Assembly: GCA_946183085.1 (NCBI GenBank)
Contig: CAMGZU010000004.1
Location: 1 to 41,785 of the forward strand
DNA: 41,785 nt
Direction: 5' to 3'
Origin: an uncultured Erysipelotrichaceae bacterium
GTDB lineage: Bacteria; Bacillota_I; Bacilli_A; RFN20; CAG-826
The notes under the pieces were generated by a model. That model was not told the origin of the DNA. It saw only the letters and a program-made list of their open reading frames with translations, and did no database searches. Of the stretch, positions 417-8,518 are shown piece after piece. Position 1 is the stretch's first letter, and the number at the start of each line of letters is the position of its first letter. Both the position numbers and the translations under genes were made by a program.

Positions 417-588
417 CTTGTTATTAAAATAATAAGGCTTTAGCCCGATTTCACTAAGCTTACCTGTTCGGAAATGGGTGTGACCGCCAAATTGATAATC
501 GCGCAGGCGTTTGCCCTTGTGAGTTGACGCTTCGCCAATATACTATAAGCATCATTTAAAGAACGTTGTTGCGACAAAGGAGCCATAC

Positions 589-1173
589 ATGAATAAAGAA
601 AACCTTTTTGCCGGTGAGCCCTACGAGGCGTTTGTCAGTTTTGAAGGTTGCCGTTTGCAATTTGCTTTGGCGAGGAAATGCAGGCTATATCGCTTTGATA
701 AGCTCATCGGAATCGACATTGCCGTAAACTTCGAACACATCGACCGGGAACTCTTATATAAACTCCCCCTCATCGAAGAGCAAGAGGATGACGGCGGACC
801 TGACGATCTCTATTTGAGTGCCAAAATATGGGGATGGAATGTCGAAAGCAAGCAATTCGTGGATCTCGGCACCTATGATTTCCCGATCGTATCCAAAGAC
901 TGGGCAAAACAAGAATTACGTGTACCAACCGAATTCCTAAGCGAAAACTTCGAATTCACCATCGCCCTAGAATACAAACTTTGCAGAACCAGCCACATTG
1001 CGATGGGCCTCTTCAAAAAACATTACGTAAAGCACGTATACGCAACAAAAGATCCCAACAAAATTGAATTGACCACCCAAATAACTCGAGTTGGAGGAAC
1101 GAACATCGAGGAAGAGACGGGAGACGATGTCAATTCCGCGTTGGAGGACCTTCTTTCCAGCAGGGGCATTTGA
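589..1173 (+). CDS. Hypothetical protein (194 aa), likely beta-rich, no recognised family
   Basis: ORF with AAAGGAG (576-582) 6 nt before ATG; first gene of a three-gene co-directional unit. Confidence 0.75.
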   Translation: MNKENLFAGEPYEAFVSFEGCRLQFALARKCRLYRFDKLIGIDIAVNFEHIDRELLYKLPLIEEQEDDGGPDDLYLSAKIWGWNVESKQFVDLGTYDFPIVSKDWAKQELRVPTEFLSENFEFTIALEYKLCRTSHIAMGLFKKHYVKHVYATKDPNKIELTTQITRVGGTNIEEETGDDVNSALEDLLSSRGI

Positions 1174-1175
1174 CG

Positions 1176-2267
1176 ATGCACACAAACATTTTCAGAGATC
1201 TTAGTAAACTTGCCGAAGAATCTAACCAAAATGGTTATCAAGCCAATTTCGATAACGAAACCGTCCGAAAATTGAATGGTTCTCTTTCGAATCAGCCAAA
1301 GATCGATATTCGCAACACCTATACAGCGTTTTTCTATTTCGCGGCGATCAACTATCTGAACGCCGCCACCAAGCACAACAAAGCAATTGGCTATCGGTTC
1401 AAGTCCTGCCTTCCGCGCATCGTGACCGAATGCTATAAAAAGCGCATCCCAGATGTAAGGTTTTATTTAACGAAAGACGGAAAGGGCGAAGTTCTTTATT
1501 GCCTATTCGGGGAAAGTTTTACCTTTTCATTCCACTCTCCTTCGATTAATGAACCAACGCTGAAAACGGCGCTCGAGAGGGCTAAACCAATTCGTTTTGA
1601 CGGAATAAGGAAGCAGCTGTGTGCCGACCGAATACTCCAAAAAGCAGCCGACCTTCTAAAAGGGCCAACCCAAAAAGCCCAAACCGCAGTCTCCAAGCCT
1701 AGTGCGCGCGATCAAAGTACGTCTTATTCCAATCGAAATGGCAAAGCCTCTTCTGCTCCGACCAATTTTGAAATCTACTCAATCGGGAAAGTCATCGATG
1801 ATTTCCATCTCAATCGTTTGATTTCAAACCCGCAAACCCGAGAGAACGTTGCGGTTGTGATTTCCACACTCTATTTTTATGCGGATCTCATTAGGGAAAC
1901 CAACCTTCCACACCACATTCGGAAAGAATTTTTCCGAGAGATGGTCACTCAATCATTTAGCGTAGTTGAAGCGGTAGAAATCGATATCGGACGTTTAATT
2001 GCTAGGCGCAACGGCAAAGACCTTCCCTCCGACCACGGAAAAGATCCCAAAGAAGACCAACAGATCTGCGTCAATTTGTGCCACAAGGAATTCCCGATGG
2101 AACCATCGACATCCAGGCTATATACGGAATATAAGCAATTACGACACAACGTGCACCTATGTAAGGAACAACAAATTATCAATAGTAGTTATTACACAGA
2201 AGAGACGACAGAGGATTGGTTTGAATTTATGCACCAATATTTGAATTATCTCGCTAGCAACATATAA
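1176..2267 (+). CDS. Hypothetical protein (about 363 aa); helical C-terminus with a HEPN-like LRHNVH motif
   Basis: ORF track starts at TTG 1170; ATG 1176 is better placed behind AGGGG. C-terminus: LYTEYKQLRHNVHLCKEQQIINSSYYTEETTEDWFEFMHQYLNYLASNI. Confidence 0.75.
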   Translation: MHTNIFRDLSKLAEESNQNGYQANFDNETVRKLNGSLSNQPKIDIRNTYTAFFYFAAINYLNAATKHNKAIGYRFKSCLPRIVTECYKKRIPDVRFYLTKDGKGEVLYCLFGESFTFSFHSPSINEPTLKTALERAKPIRFDGIRKQLCADRILQKAADLLKGPTQKAQTAVSKPSARDQSTSYSNRNGKASSAPTNFEIYSIGKVIDDFHLNRLISNPQTRENVAVVISTLYFYADLIRETNLPHHIRKEFFREMVTQSFSVVEAVEIDIGRLIARRNGKDLPSDHGKDPKEDQQICVNLCHKEFPMEPSTSRLYTEYKQLRHNVHLCKEQQIINSSYYTEETTEDWFEFMHQYLNYLASNI

Positions 2268-2294
2268 TTACTAGAATTGCAGGAGAAAATTATC

Positions 2295-2774
2295 ATGGCG
2301 AAACCATTTAAATTATCACGCCGAGAGAGAGAACAAGCGAATAATCAAAGCGCCGGCCACCAAGACACCCGGGATAAATTCGGCGATAAAAAAGCAGAAT
2401 GGTCAACTGGTGAACCTCCTTTCGCTTTGGTGGCAAAAATAGAGAAAGGCGCTGGCGTCGTCGAAAAGGGCGTGTTTAATAAGAAAGAGGCTTATAACGC
2501 CAGTTTGGCTGTGAGAACCATCGGAAACGTCGCCTCCCTTACTGCTTTTTATGTAACAAAAGAAGCTACCGGGACTCGGAAAATTAAACTTGTCAAAAAG
2601 GCCGAGCAAAAGTATAGCGAAGACGCGATGGATACGTTATACGTTGGCGCTTTTGATGCCCCTCTTAATTTGATTCAAGGCAAATTCCTCATCGTTACAG
2701 TTCACTGCACATTTAAGGCGGGGTTTTTGAAGAGGAAACTCCAGAAAGTTACTGTGTATTTGCCAATACGATAG
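2295..2774 (+). CDS. Hypothetical protein (159 aa) with basic, probably disordered N-terminus and beta-rich C-terminus
   Basis: AGGAG (2281-2285) positioned for ATG 2295 (MAKPFKLSRREREQ...) rather than the track start at 2277. Confidence 0.7.
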   Translation: MAKPFKLSRREREQANNQSAGHQDTRDKFGDKKAEWSTGEPPFALVAKIEKGAGVVEKGVFNKKEAYNASLAVRTIGNVASLTAFYVTKEATGTRKIKLVKKAEQKYSEDAMDTLYVGAFDAPLNLIQGKFLIVTVHCTFKAGFLKRKLQKVTVYLPIR

Positions 2775-2812
2775 AGAACAACGGTGGCCGTTGGCCGTCC
2801 CTAAACTTGATT

Positions 2813-2840
2813 CCCGCCTAGTGAAAGGCGGGTTTCTTTG
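2813..2840 (+). terminator. Rho-independent terminator of the 589-2774 cassette
   Basis: CCCGCC-TAGTGAAA-GGCGGG followed by TTTCTTTG. Confidence 0.75.
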
Positions 2841-4095: not shown

Positions 4096-4548
4096 TTAGG
4101 CAGAACGGCGATTGTTATGGGCTTCTTTCTCTCGTCGCACCAATCCCATGACGATTCCTTCGCGATGATCCAGCAATTCAAGGAAGGCTTCTACCGGGTC
4201 GCAGAATCCTTTTTTGATCTCCACTTGGAACCAGAGGCTGATGGAGCCATCCGGACAGCAAGTGCAGCCCTCAAAGGGATAATTGTTCCGATCCTTCAAG
4301 AACTCATAGATCACGCGCAGGTCGCTTCGCTTGCCTGGATGGAAGCAAACCGTGATCTCCGCCCGGTTCACCTCTCGTTTTTTGGAGAAGACCGGGTTGA
4401 AGTAATGACGGATCTGAATGACCTCGTCCCCTCGAGGGCGAGGGGCGAGGTAAGTGGTCTCATCGAATCCCCAATGCGGGAAGATGTCTCCCATCATCGG
4501 GAAGTAGCCTCTTTGTTGGAGGCCTTCGCTAAGCTGAGCGAATCTCAC
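4096..4548 (-). CDS. Hypothetical protein (150 aa) with CTCC motif
   Basis: GTG start overlaps the TGA of the upstream Ntn-hydrolase gene (GTGA). Confidence 0.7.
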   Translation of the reverse strand: MRFAQLSEGLQQRGYFPMMGDIFPHWGFDETTYLAPRPRGDEVIQIRHYFNPVFSKKREVNRAEITVCFHPGKRSDLRVIYEFLKDRNNYPFEGCTCCPDGSISLWFQVEIKKGFCDPVEAFLELLDHREGIVMGLVRREKEAHNNRRSA

Positions 4549-5192
4549 TGATGATTCGCCTCCTTAGCTTTTCCGGCCGGTTTCTCGATGTCCTCTTCGA
4601 AGCGATCCGTGATCACCTTGAATTCCATGGACTCGGAATCGGTGAGGATGATCGGGTAGTCGACGTAGATGTCGGAGGCGGCACCGGCCTTGATGGCCTT
4701 TATGATGCGGGCCTCTGGGTCTTCGCCCTCCGAGGAGAGGAGACTGCCAATCGCCTGGTCTTCCCCGCTTCCGATCGCGGCGTAGTCATCAATCTCGAGC
4801 ACACAGCCATCGGTATTGATGAGGAAGAGCTGGTCCTTGTAGATGAAGAGGTAACAGGATTCCGTGTGCTCCAGGTACTTATCATCTTTGAGATAGCCGG
4901 CTTCGCGGAGGGCCTTGACGATCTCGGGGACAACCCGTTTGACGACGTAGCGATATCCCACGCGGTTTTGGTAGACGTCGTAATCGGTCACCAAGTCGTC
5001 CATGAGGCGGACGATGTTGGCGTCCCTGACGTTACCCACATGGGCCATCAGGCACGCAGGCGTATTCCCGACCTGCCAGATCTTGTAGTTGTTGGGGTTT
5101 TTGAGGGTGGATCTCGTTCCGCCTTTCGTCACTTGGGAGTCTGCGCCAACGTAGACCTTCCCGTTTTCTTTAATTGCTACAACCAAACTCAT
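4545..5192 (-). CDS. HslV/20S-proteasome-beta-like Ntn hydrolase
   Basis: MSLVVAIKENGKVYVGADSQVTKGG...: after Met removal Ser1, with Asp at position 17 in a GxDxQ context as in HslV, and a Lys (about position 36) near the HslV Lys33 site; GGAGGT SD upstream. Confidence 0.75.
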   Translation of the reverse strand: MSLVVAIKENGKVYVGADSQVTKGGTRSTLKNPNNYKIWQVGNTPACLMAHVGNVRDANIVRLMDDLVTDYDVYQNRVGYRYVVKRVVPEIVKALREAGYLKDDKYLEHTESCYLFIYKDQLFLINTDGCVLEIDDYAAIGSGEDQAIGSLLSSEGEDPEARIIKAIKAGAASDIYVDYPIILTDSESMEFKVITDRFEEDIEKPAGKAKEANHQ

Positions 5193-5828: not shown

Positions 5829-7331
5829 CTATTTGAGGACGATTGCCGCGTGGCGTTTTAAGACGAGAGTTTTACCTTCTTCTTTGACGTCACCCAGCTG
5901 ATGGATGATCTTTTGTCCTTTCGGATCGACCTTCAGGTCGGTGTCCTTCAGGTTGAGGTAGACGCGGATCTTGCCACGGGAATAAGCAAGGGCTTCGTTC
6001 AAGTATTCGAAGTCATTGCTTCTAAGGTCTTCTTCTTGATTACGGAGCGCGACCAGTTTCTTGACTTCATTGAGGAGAGAGTTCGGATTCCTTTCCTCTT
6101 CCTCGACGGTTGGGTCGCCTTCGATCGTTGGAAGAAAGGTGTGGTCCGCTTTCGAGAAGCCGGCGTTCTTGGAAGAATCCCAGCGCATGGGCGTGCGGGA
6201 GCCGGTGCGTTGATAACCACCTTCAAAGGACGGGAGTTTGAGGTTGGTATGGGCGCCAAGCTCATCGCCAAAATAGAGATAAGGGACGCCTGGCATCGTG
6301 AAGAGGAAGAGATAGGCGAGGCGAAGCTCTTCGTCGTTGAGGTAATTCGCGATGCGCCACGTATCGTGGTTGCCCGAGATGATGGAAAGGCGTCCTCCCA
6401 AAGCCTTATAGGCTTTGACGCGGTCTAAGATGTCCTTAAGGCATTCTTGATAACGCTTCTCGTCGTATTTGTGAAGAAGAGGTGCAGGAGCATCGTCGTG
6501 GCTACGGAAGAGCATATGGGAGAAGTTGTCCCAATGATCCAAGACGAAGTCGGAGGAGAAGCCAGCTTTTAAAGACCGCCAGGGATTGCTCCATTCGGAA
6601 GTCATATAGAAATCTTTATAGCCATCCTTCTTGAGGTCTTTGAGGATCGTTTGCCAAAGCTCGATGGTCGCGACTTTCTCATCGTCGTTTTTGACGAGGG
6701 AATCCGCCATGTCGACGCGGAAGCCATCCACCCCATAATCGAGCCAGAACTTCATGATCTTCTCGAGATAATCTTTGCCCTTGGCTTCCTTATAGGGAAT
6801 CTGCCATTTGGGCTCGGTGATCTTGTAGAAGCCATAGTTGATGGCAGGCTGATGGACGAAGAAATTGACCATGTAGCAGGCGTGGCGGTCATAAAGCCCG
6901 CTCACCATGCGGTATCCTGGCGTCAAATCCCAAGGGTTCTCGTTCCAAATAAAGAGGTCATATTTGTCATTGCGGACCCCTTTGCCAGATTCCAAGAAGT
7001 CTTTGTTCTCCCAAGACATATGGCCGGGGACCAAATCCAAGAAGAGGCGCATCCCCAAAGAATGCATCTTCTCAACCAAGCCTTTGAGTTCTTCGTTGGT
7101 GCCAAAGCGGGGAGAGACCTTAAAAGGATCTCTCACGTCGTAGCCGCCATCTAGGAATGGCGAATCGTAGATCGGGTTGAGCCAAATGGCGTTGAAGCCA
7201 AGCCCTTTGATGTAAGGAAGCTTCTCTTCGATGCCTCTCAAATCGCCAAAGCCATCGCCGTTGGCGTCATAAAACGAGTTGGGGTAGATCTCATAGAAAA
7301 CGAGGTCTTTGAAGGCGGGGAGTTCGCTCAT
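5829..7331 (-). CDS. GH13 alpha-amylase-family glycosidase (alpha-glucosidase / oligo-1,6-glucosidase type)
   Basis: FYEIYPNSFYDANGDGFGDLRGIEEKLPYIKGLGFNAIWLNPIYDSP, GVDGFRVDMAD, ISGNHDTWR. Confidence 0.9.
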   Translation of the reverse strand: MSELPAFKDLVFYEIYPNSFYDANGDGFGDLRGIEEKLPYIKGLGFNAIWLNPIYDSPFLDGGYDVRDPFKVSPRFGTNEELKGLVEKMHSLGMRLFLDLVPGHMSWENKDFLESGKGVRNDKYDLFIWNENPWDLTPGYRMVSGLYDRHACYMVNFFVHQPAINYGFYKITEPKWQIPYKEAKGKDYLEKIMKFWLDYGVDGFRVDMADSLVKNDDEKVATIELWQTILKDLKKDGYKDFYMTSEWSNPWRSLKAGFSSDFVLDHWDNFSHMLFRSHDDAPAPLLHKYDEKRYQECLKDILDRVKAYKALGGRLSIISGNHDTWRIANYLNDEELRLAYLFLFTMPGVPYLYFGDELGAHTNLKLPSFEGGYQRTGSRTPMRWDSSKNAGFSKADHTFLPTIEGDPTVEEEERNPNSLLNEVKKLVALRNQEEDLRSNDFEYLNEALAYSRGKIRVYLNLKDTDLKVDPKGQKIIHQLGDVKEEGKTLVLKRHAAIVLK

Positions 7332-7342
7332 ATGTTTTCTCC

Positions 7343-8518
7343 TTATTTGCCGAGGCGCTTGTTCTCTTTCTCGGTCTCGGTTGGGTATTTTTTGATGAGG
7401 ATCTTGTTTTCAAACAAGAAATAGAGGGTGAGGATGATCGGCTCCAAGGCGAAGGTCACCAAGAAGACGATTGAGGTGAAGAGGTCATCGCGGATGCCAC
7501 GGAGAATCATCACGACGAAGATCACCGCGAAAGCGATGATCGCAAGAGTGTCGGTGATGACGATCTGCAACCTCAAATGGCCATTGTCCCAGAAGCGCTT
7601 CCTGGCGCGGTGCTGGAACAAAAAGGCGCCCGAGATCCCCGACCCCACAAGGCAAAGGAAGGTTACGGTGTAATGGATGGCAAAGGGGATCAATTCGCCA
7701 TTTTTCCAAATGCCATAGTAAAGGATGGCGGAGACGACCGCCAAAAGCATGGTTAGACAAGAAGCGACGAGCCAAAGGATCGTCTTCTGAACGGTCTTGG
7801 CCTCCACTTCTTCTTCCTTTAAGGCCTCTTTGACCGCTTCGCGGTAGCCTTGCCCGAACAAATCGGTGAGGAACATCGTGTTGGCGGTGTCGCGGAAGTC
7901 TGGCTTCACCTCTTCTTGCTCCACCGCTTGCGGCTCGGGCTTTAAGAACGTGTGGATGTTCGAAATGAAGGAGACGCCTTCGGGCTGAACCGCGAAAAGC
8001 TGGGGGGCGTAGCAATAAATTGGATAGGTTTTGAGGATCTTTGAGAGGAGGTCCACCGCCGTTTTGGCGAAGATCGTATCCGCGCCCGAAAGATCCAAGA
8101 CCAAGTAGTTGGGCTTGGCGCAGAGCTCGCTATAAACGCCTTCGATGAGGTGCAGGAAATTCAAATGCATCTCCTTGGGGAGCTCGCTTCCCGTCAAATA
8201 GCGGAGCGCGTTCTCCCTCGCTGGCGAATCGTCGATCACGCCGCCAAGCGGGACTTGGGAGCGGAGGACGTTAAAGGCGAGTGAGGTCGCCACGACCACC
8301 GAGATCGGATAACGGTCGCGGTTGGGATTGGCGATGTTGAGGTAGTCCGCGCCATTGACGCGGAAATAACCGATGTATTCGTCTTGGCCTTTTAGTTCCA
8401 GAAGGTCGATGACCGTCCTCGCGTTCGTTCCGCCAAGCAAAAGAAGACCGCTCTCATCGTTGTCGAAGGCGATCTTCGATTGGGGATTCCGTTTTGCGTA
8501 AAACGAGGCGGAGATCAT
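7343..8518 (-). CDS. Hypothetical protein with C-terminal multi-pass membrane region
   Basis: 391-aa ORF; several hydrophobic helices in the C-terminal half (LWLVASCLTMLLAVVSAILYYG, FAIHYTVTFLCLVGSGISGAFLF, LAIIAFAVIFVVMIL, FTSIVFLVTFALEPIILTLYFLF). Confidence 0.75.
   Translation of the reverse strand: MISASFYAKRNPQSKIAFDNDESGLLLLGGTNARTVIDLLELKGQDEYIGYFRVNGADYLNIANPNRDRYPISVVVATSLAFNVLRSQVPLGGVIDDSPARENALRYLTGSELPKEMHLNFLHLIEGVYSELCAKPNYLVLDLSGADTIFAKTAVDLLSKILKTYPIYCYAPQLFAVQPEGVSFISNIHTFLKPEPQAVEQEEVKPDFRDTANTMFLTDLFGQGYREAVKEALKEEEVEAKTVQKTILWLVASCLTMLLAVVSAILYYGIWKNGELIPFAIHYTVTFLCLVGSGISGAFLFQHRARKRFWDNGHLRLQIVITDTLAIIAFAVIFVVMILRGIRDDLFTSIVFLVTFALEPIILTLYFLFENKILIKKYPTETEKENKRLGK

Follow-up and report, generated by a model that had tools for sequence, protein, structure and literature searches.

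The window analysed here is a whole contig, 41,785 bases long, of a gut-type Bacilli genome assembled into 121 contigs (1.32 Mb). It opens with the N-terminal part of a regulator gene and, divergent from it, three co-directional open reading frames that end in a terminator (Table 1). The preliminary description had given this arrangement, with products of 194, 363 and 159 aa facing away from a helix-turn-helix (HTH) regulator, and re-examination confirms it in position as well as in order. Of 300 dinucleotide shuffles of positions 417-2840, none yielded an ORF of 363 aa or more and none a set of three in the same direction with 155 aa or more each; an ORF of 194 aa was reached in 3 of 300. Gene 2 starts 2 nt past the stop of gene 1. 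Good Shine-Dalgarno-like sites precede genes 1 (AAAGGAG) and 3 (AGGAG), and gene 2 is preceded by only a weak CAGGGG. The single terminator proposed earlier is present as a clean hairpin and T tract, although, taken together, the terminator-like sites near the cassette are at chance level (4 against 3.3 expected). Within the divergent intergenic region, one promoter-like site (517-544, + strand) and a palindrome spotted by eye (TTATTA-AAA-TAATAA, 421-435) are likewise not above chance.

Table 1. Features at the left end of the window (positions in the 41,785-base contig)
Feature	Position	Strand	Remarks
HTH/WYL-family regulator, N-terminal 138 aa	3-416	-	remainder off contig
Divergent intergenic region	417-588		between regulator and gene 1
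Gene 1 (P0001)	589-1173	+	194 aa ORF
Gene 2 (P0002)	1176-2267	+	363 aa ORF counted from ATG
Gene 3 (P0003)	2295-2774	+	159 aa ORF
Intrinsic terminator	2813-2832	+	hairpin CCCGCCT-AGTGAA-AGGCGGG, then T tract TTTCTTTGTT; ends cassette
AAA ATPase with AAA_lid_6 (CbxX/SpoVK type), 341 aa	2932-3957	-	accessory
150-aa protein	4096-4548	-	matches no family and no protein of the loci retrieved
Proteasome-like (Ntn) protein, 215 aa	4545-5192	-	Pfam Proteasome E 1.4e-9; 1.8 kb right of trio

Composition sets this end of the contig apart. The trio has 43.5-45.8% GC, against 53-55% in most genes to the right, and a third-position GC (GC3) of 0.46-0.53, against 0.68 +/- 0.07 in the other long ORFs of the window; the AT-richness remarked on earlier is thus borne out. 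The regulator fragment is low like the trio (GC3 0.54), with the neighbouring AAA, 150-aa and proteasome-like genes at 0.64-0.75; by composition, trio and regulator therefore look jointly foreign, and the trio was probably acquired horizontally. Beyond the accessory stretch, an alpha-amylase/glucosidase-type gene at 5829-7331 (- strand), recognised by reading the sequence, opens a part of the contig that looks ordinary.

The three products belong to no recognised family, as had been thought from inspection: searches of Pfam, NCBIfam, PADLOC and PHROGs returned no credible match for any of them, the PADLOC profiles for core proteins of known anti-phage systems included. Sequence searches of solved structures gave nothing beyond chance, and the trio matched no phage, plasmid or known defense system sequence. 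As a unit it was found only in the window's own genome, in searches that covered relatives, genomes of the order, a phylum sample, GTDB, plasmids and phages for one or more of its genes. The preliminary description had proposed a self-contained accessory module and had named a failure to co-occur elsewhere as the result that would count against it. Because the trio was found in a single genome, that is largely the outcome at the level of the trio, and the case for a new, conserved and self-contained system is not made by a trio that has been seen once; at the level of components the outcome is the opposite, for gene 3 recurs beside a WYL gene in another genus.

The gene 1 product is predicted to be all-beta, and no credible homologue was found in 194 relatives, about 280 genomes of the order, plasmids or phages. 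Weak matches among the order genomes (E 0.004-1, several with internal stops) were set down to chance. The predicted structure was too poor to use (pLDDT 46), its Foldseek matches being of generic beta-sandwich and arrestin-like kinds, and a comparison of genes 1 and 3 as possible paralogues was not significant.

Gene 2 has two domains, with a recurrent alpha/beta N-domain at about residues 45-160, a low-complexity linker (160-200) and a helical C-domain (about 203-362). Five relatives encode a match to the N-domain as a protein of its own, about 160-200 aa long. When GTDB genomes were scanned with a pattern from the gene 2 alignment, eight loci came back, at least three of them in same-genus genomes already found, and every match was limited to the N-domain; the others include a Prevotellaceae metagenome-assembled genome (MAG) and a Eubacteriales MAG with a 946-aa fusion. 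Eleven residues are invariant in eight sequences: N59, K66, F117, S118, H120, D142, G143, I144, K146, Q147 and A150. The 946-aa protein (L060:7854-10694), for which Pfam gave no match, joins the N-domain to a stretch that looks P-loop-like by eye and to a C-terminal RNKAAH. The stand-alone protein of three same-genus species (L056-L058, about 7866-8360; identical to L008-L010) is flanked by genes resembling an Ogt-type methyltransferase and an AlkA-type 3-methyladenine glycosylase, names read from sequence with no profile search behind them.

The C-domain of gene 2 had no relatives in the 194 genomes, in a phylum sample of 323 or in the GTDB pattern scan. It is predicted, from a model that for this domain draws on one sequence, to form a helical bundle of low confidence (pLDDT about 50-70; whole-model mean 60). 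The Foldseek matches of highest probability are HEPN toxins (8yuf, 8xdj and 8xeh; probability 0.54-0.87, E 0.56-1.6), and a search of BFVD with gene 2 gave no match. In the HEPN motif as published, R and H are separated by four to six residues (PMC3710099). Gene 2 resembles these RNases and toxins in its predicted bundle, its weak fold match and an R...H pair with a polar residue after the R; it differs in that R323-HNV-H327 is Rx3H and not the canonical Rx4-6H, that no Pfam family, HEPN or other, matches the domain, and that the C-domain has no Ex3[KR]. Comparison by hhalign with the HEPN-type sequences available for this analysis scored no better than shuffles. With toxin E values of 0.56 or more, this spacing and no sequence match beyond shuffles, the modelled domain weakly resembles HEPN toxins, and the likeness is a lead, not membership.

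Gene 3, which reads as beta-rich, supplies the one recurrence of a cassette component beside a WYL gene. Its homologue is the C-terminal half of a 307-aa protein of another genus (G255, locus L089), whose gene follows that of a WYL sibling after a gap of 17 nt. Identity is 28%, with a pairwise blastp E of 1e-9; hhalign gives a probability of 90.7% and E 1.2e-6, a score reached by none of 25 shuffles, and the residues kept include EKG.G...KG.FNKK...N. The following gene encodes LRNEIAHG, a canonical Rx4H, with a weak partial match to Pfam HEPN_RiboL-PSP (E 0.012), and WYL is preceded by a kinase gene truncated to 136 aa. The relative was detected among about 15 ORFs of this one locus, and the link between gene 3 and WYL is shaped by that route of discovery because the locus was fetched for its WYL gene; no relatives away from WYL were seen in 194 relatives, plasmids or phages.

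The regulator is visible as 138 N-terminal residues, its WYL domain lying outside the window because the contig begins at its own edge; the cassette sits at that extreme left edge, so sequence left of base 1 cannot be read. The missing half was found on no other contig of the genome with a sibling sequence as query. The family assignment made earlier is supported: the fragment has the N-terminal HTH of the WYL regulator family, matches PADLOC WYL at E 9e-9 (HTH_11 weakly, E 0.003) and shares 33-45% identity over about 115-138 aa with full-length siblings, two of which carry both WYL and WCX domains. Of 276 order genomes, 9 have a member of the family. For BrxR-type WYL regulators, a known defense system is nearby in 48% of cases (PMC9122601), and the regulator of the window shares with BrxR and CapW a WYL-family HTH protein divergent from an accessory operon, with siblings near defense-type genes; it differs in that its WYL domain is off the contig and that the long inverted repeat described for BrxR was not found in 417-588.

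The preliminary description noted that WYL regulators often sit divergent from phage-defense operons; the siblings in this family usually lie within signalling or defense modules. TerY-P-like genes for kinase, vWA and/or PP2C are present at six of its ten loci besides the window, two of the six being seen in part. Kinase, vWA and PP2C occur together in four (G000:C60, G030, G026:C79 and G257), most with toastrack/DUF4097-type proteins; G029 has vWA and PP2C at a contig end, and G255 a lone kinase fragment with the gene 3 relative. One locus (G148) lies beside Csm6 and RT-Cas1, and three (G007, on a 3-kb contig; G026:C72; G168) have none of these genes. At the G148 locus (L052/L053, G148:C3), the WYL sibling adjoins Csm6 (CARF-HEPN) and an RT-Cas1 fusion on one side; on the other lie a helicase, an FtsK-like ATPase, four small proteins of about 85-206 aa, a WHH-nuclease-type protein of 397 aa, a SUKH-type protein and an Ntn protein. 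The window's genome itself holds a second WYL locus on a contig of 7.2 kb (L043, G000:C60), where kinase, vWA and PP2C genes accompany it, and G030 has an apparent second kinase/phosphatase/vWA group (L054, G030:C16), from reading of the sequence.

To the right of the trio stand three genes absent from the preliminary description. The AAA ATPase is found in 11 of 276 order genomes and in no other member of the genus at E<=1e-25; it shares AAA and AAA_lid_6 domains with CbxX/SpoVK ATPases, whose relatives also occupy accessory-looking neighbourhoods (L076-L080), and differs from them in lying near a proteasome-like protein and the trio. The Ntn protein matches the Proteasome profile and has a putative N-terminal nucleophile: Ser2 after Met1, Asp (GADS) and Lys (NNYK) stand at proteasome-like positions and are kept in all four order-level homologues (window 4545-5192, - strand; L044:12169-12798; L052:13584-14222; L088:2984-3628). 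Such a gene occurs in 3 of 146 relatives (the window's genome, G030 and G148), and G257 was added later via its WYL gene. More distant homologues, at 30% identity, occur on Bacillus plasmids in a different setting near an AAA ATPase. In the plasmids of Bacillus licheniformis and B. paralicheniformis (L091, L092), the homologue is annotated as hypothetical, with an AAA ATPase, DUF1257 and DUF2997 a few genes away.

At all four order-level loci, a member of the WYL family lies within about 12 kb of the Ntn gene on the same strand. The order Ntn, cargo, WYL on one strand is shared by G030, G257 and the window and is reversed in G148. A rough estimate of chance proximity, which takes WYL to be in about 3% of genomes with a 24-kb target in 1.6 Mb and ignores shared ancestry, is about 6e-4 per genome and about 4e-7 for two independently found cases. 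In two relatives the interval is filled by kinase-vWA-vWA-PP2C; in the window it holds the 150-aa gene, the AAA ATPase and the inverted trio, divergent from WYL. A triad of kinase, vWA and PP2C is what the literature describes as TerY-P; such triads are linked to restriction and processing systems, and an antiphage role is reported for TerY-P-like modules (PMC11090510). With the TerY-P and kinase-ZnR + vWA + PP2C modules (PMC11090510, PMC7159879) the window shares its WYL family (G000:C60, G030, G026, G029 and G257) and its Ntn partner (G030 and G257), a pairing that serves as a TerY-P-type sign through the linkage found here and not as a published criterion. It differs from them in that sibling-sequence queries found no kinase, vWA or PP2C among its ORFs, on a contig that begins at base 1, and in what its Ntn-WYL interval holds.

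The reading we favour, tentatively and at somewhat less than an even chance, is that the trio came in by horizontal transfer and is swappable cargo of an accessory locus under WYL control, of the TerY-P/proteasome-like (Ntn) type. The anatomy of the genes, their distinct composition, the family of the regulator, the Ntn-WYL linkage and the return of gene 3 next to a WYL sibling are shown directly. For this reading speak the surroundings of most WYL siblings, that linkage, the low GC3 of trio and regulator, the gene 3 relative of L089 with an Rx4H protein after it, the RNKAAH at the end of the N-domain carrier L060 and the HEPN toxins among the fold matches of the gene 2 C-domain. Gene 3 turns up again next to such a regulator in another genus and therefore looks like a swappable part. 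It is better to take as the unit the WYL-Ntn locus, whose contents can be exchanged and here include the trio; the literature searched held no description of a locus type that combines WYL, a proteasome-like protein and exchangeable signalling or effector genes. Several observations count against such cargo. The HEPN likeness is weak in E value, motif spacing and sequence, and the window has no kinase, vWA or PP2C relative of the sibling modules. Trio and AAA/150-aa/Ntn genes differ in composition and strand, so that the trio may not work with them; two WYL siblings (L047, L090) have ordinary neighbours; and the gene 2 N-domain stands alone between the DNA-repair-like methyltransferase and glycosylase genes of the three same-genus species.

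A more specific proposal, which we regard as unlikely, makes the trio one form of an effector cassette, not described before, that slots into signalling loci bounded by WYL and Ntn, serves phage or stress defense and places the gene 3 domain beside a HEPN-like domain. Gene 3 and HEPN-like domains are separate genes here, and fused or adjacent in L089.

It is also unlikely that these are simply three fast-evolving, transferred and lineage-specific genes that came to rest by WYL with no common function and are perhaps decaying. The solitary gene 1, the uniqueness and foreign composition of the trio and the truncated kinase beside WYL in L089 are what such ORFan cargo would leave; all three ORFs, however, are intact, tightly spaced and terminated, and both gene 3 and the N-domain of gene 2 are met again in other places, the former by WYL once more. 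More doubtful still is a set of substrate-binding adaptors for regulated proteolysis by the AAA and proteasome-like proteins, with no nuclease involved. The nearness of these accessory genes, the retained Ser2/Asp/Lys of the Ntn protein and the beta-rich look of genes 1 (by prediction) and 3 (by eye) would suit adaptors; yet the trio lies on the opposite strand with a composition unlike that of AAA/Ntn, the other three order-level Ntn loci have neither the AAA of the window nor the trio, and the 14 kb covered around the gene 3 relative in L089 gave no match to Ntn or AAA.

A toxin-antitoxin-like unit, with gene 1 as antitoxin, gene 2 as HEPN-like toxin and gene 3 as accessory, seems improbable. 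The 2-nt spacing of genes 1 and 2 is consistent with one, as are the best-probability structural neighbours of gene 2, which are toxins of HEPN-MNT pairs; but gene 1 is predicted to be beta-rich and not a nucleotidyltransferase, no toxin-antitoxin or PADLOC profile matches the trio, and the gene 3 relative occurs without one of gene 1. Least probable is a DNA-damage response cassette in which the N-domain of gene 2 would serve alkylation repair, as its place between Ogt-type and AlkA-type lookalikes in the three same-genus species might suggest, for the N-domain loci L059, L060, L061 and L063 lack that context.

If the trio is indeed exchangeable cargo of a WYL-Ntn locus, a working scheme can be envisioned by analogy, the models being BrxR-type regulators and the sibling loci, from which WYL regulation, action of gene 2 on RNA and a role in defense are inferred. 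The WYL protein would repress the divergent promoter region until a ligand produced in infection or genome stress relieved it. Gene 2 is the likely effector of the cassette: its N-domain may sense or recruit, and its helical, HEPN-like C-domain may act on RNA. Genes 1 and 3 would be beta-rich partners that tether or restrain it, and the adjacent AAA/Ntn pair could remodel or degrade a partner.

Three unannotated proteins are now tied to a type of locus made up of WYL, a proteasome-like protein and exchangeable genes, and gene 3 offers a seed domain for finding more cassettes. Should the cargo idea be true, the Ntn-WYL interval would be a place to seek new defense and stress effectors in small-genome Bacilli.
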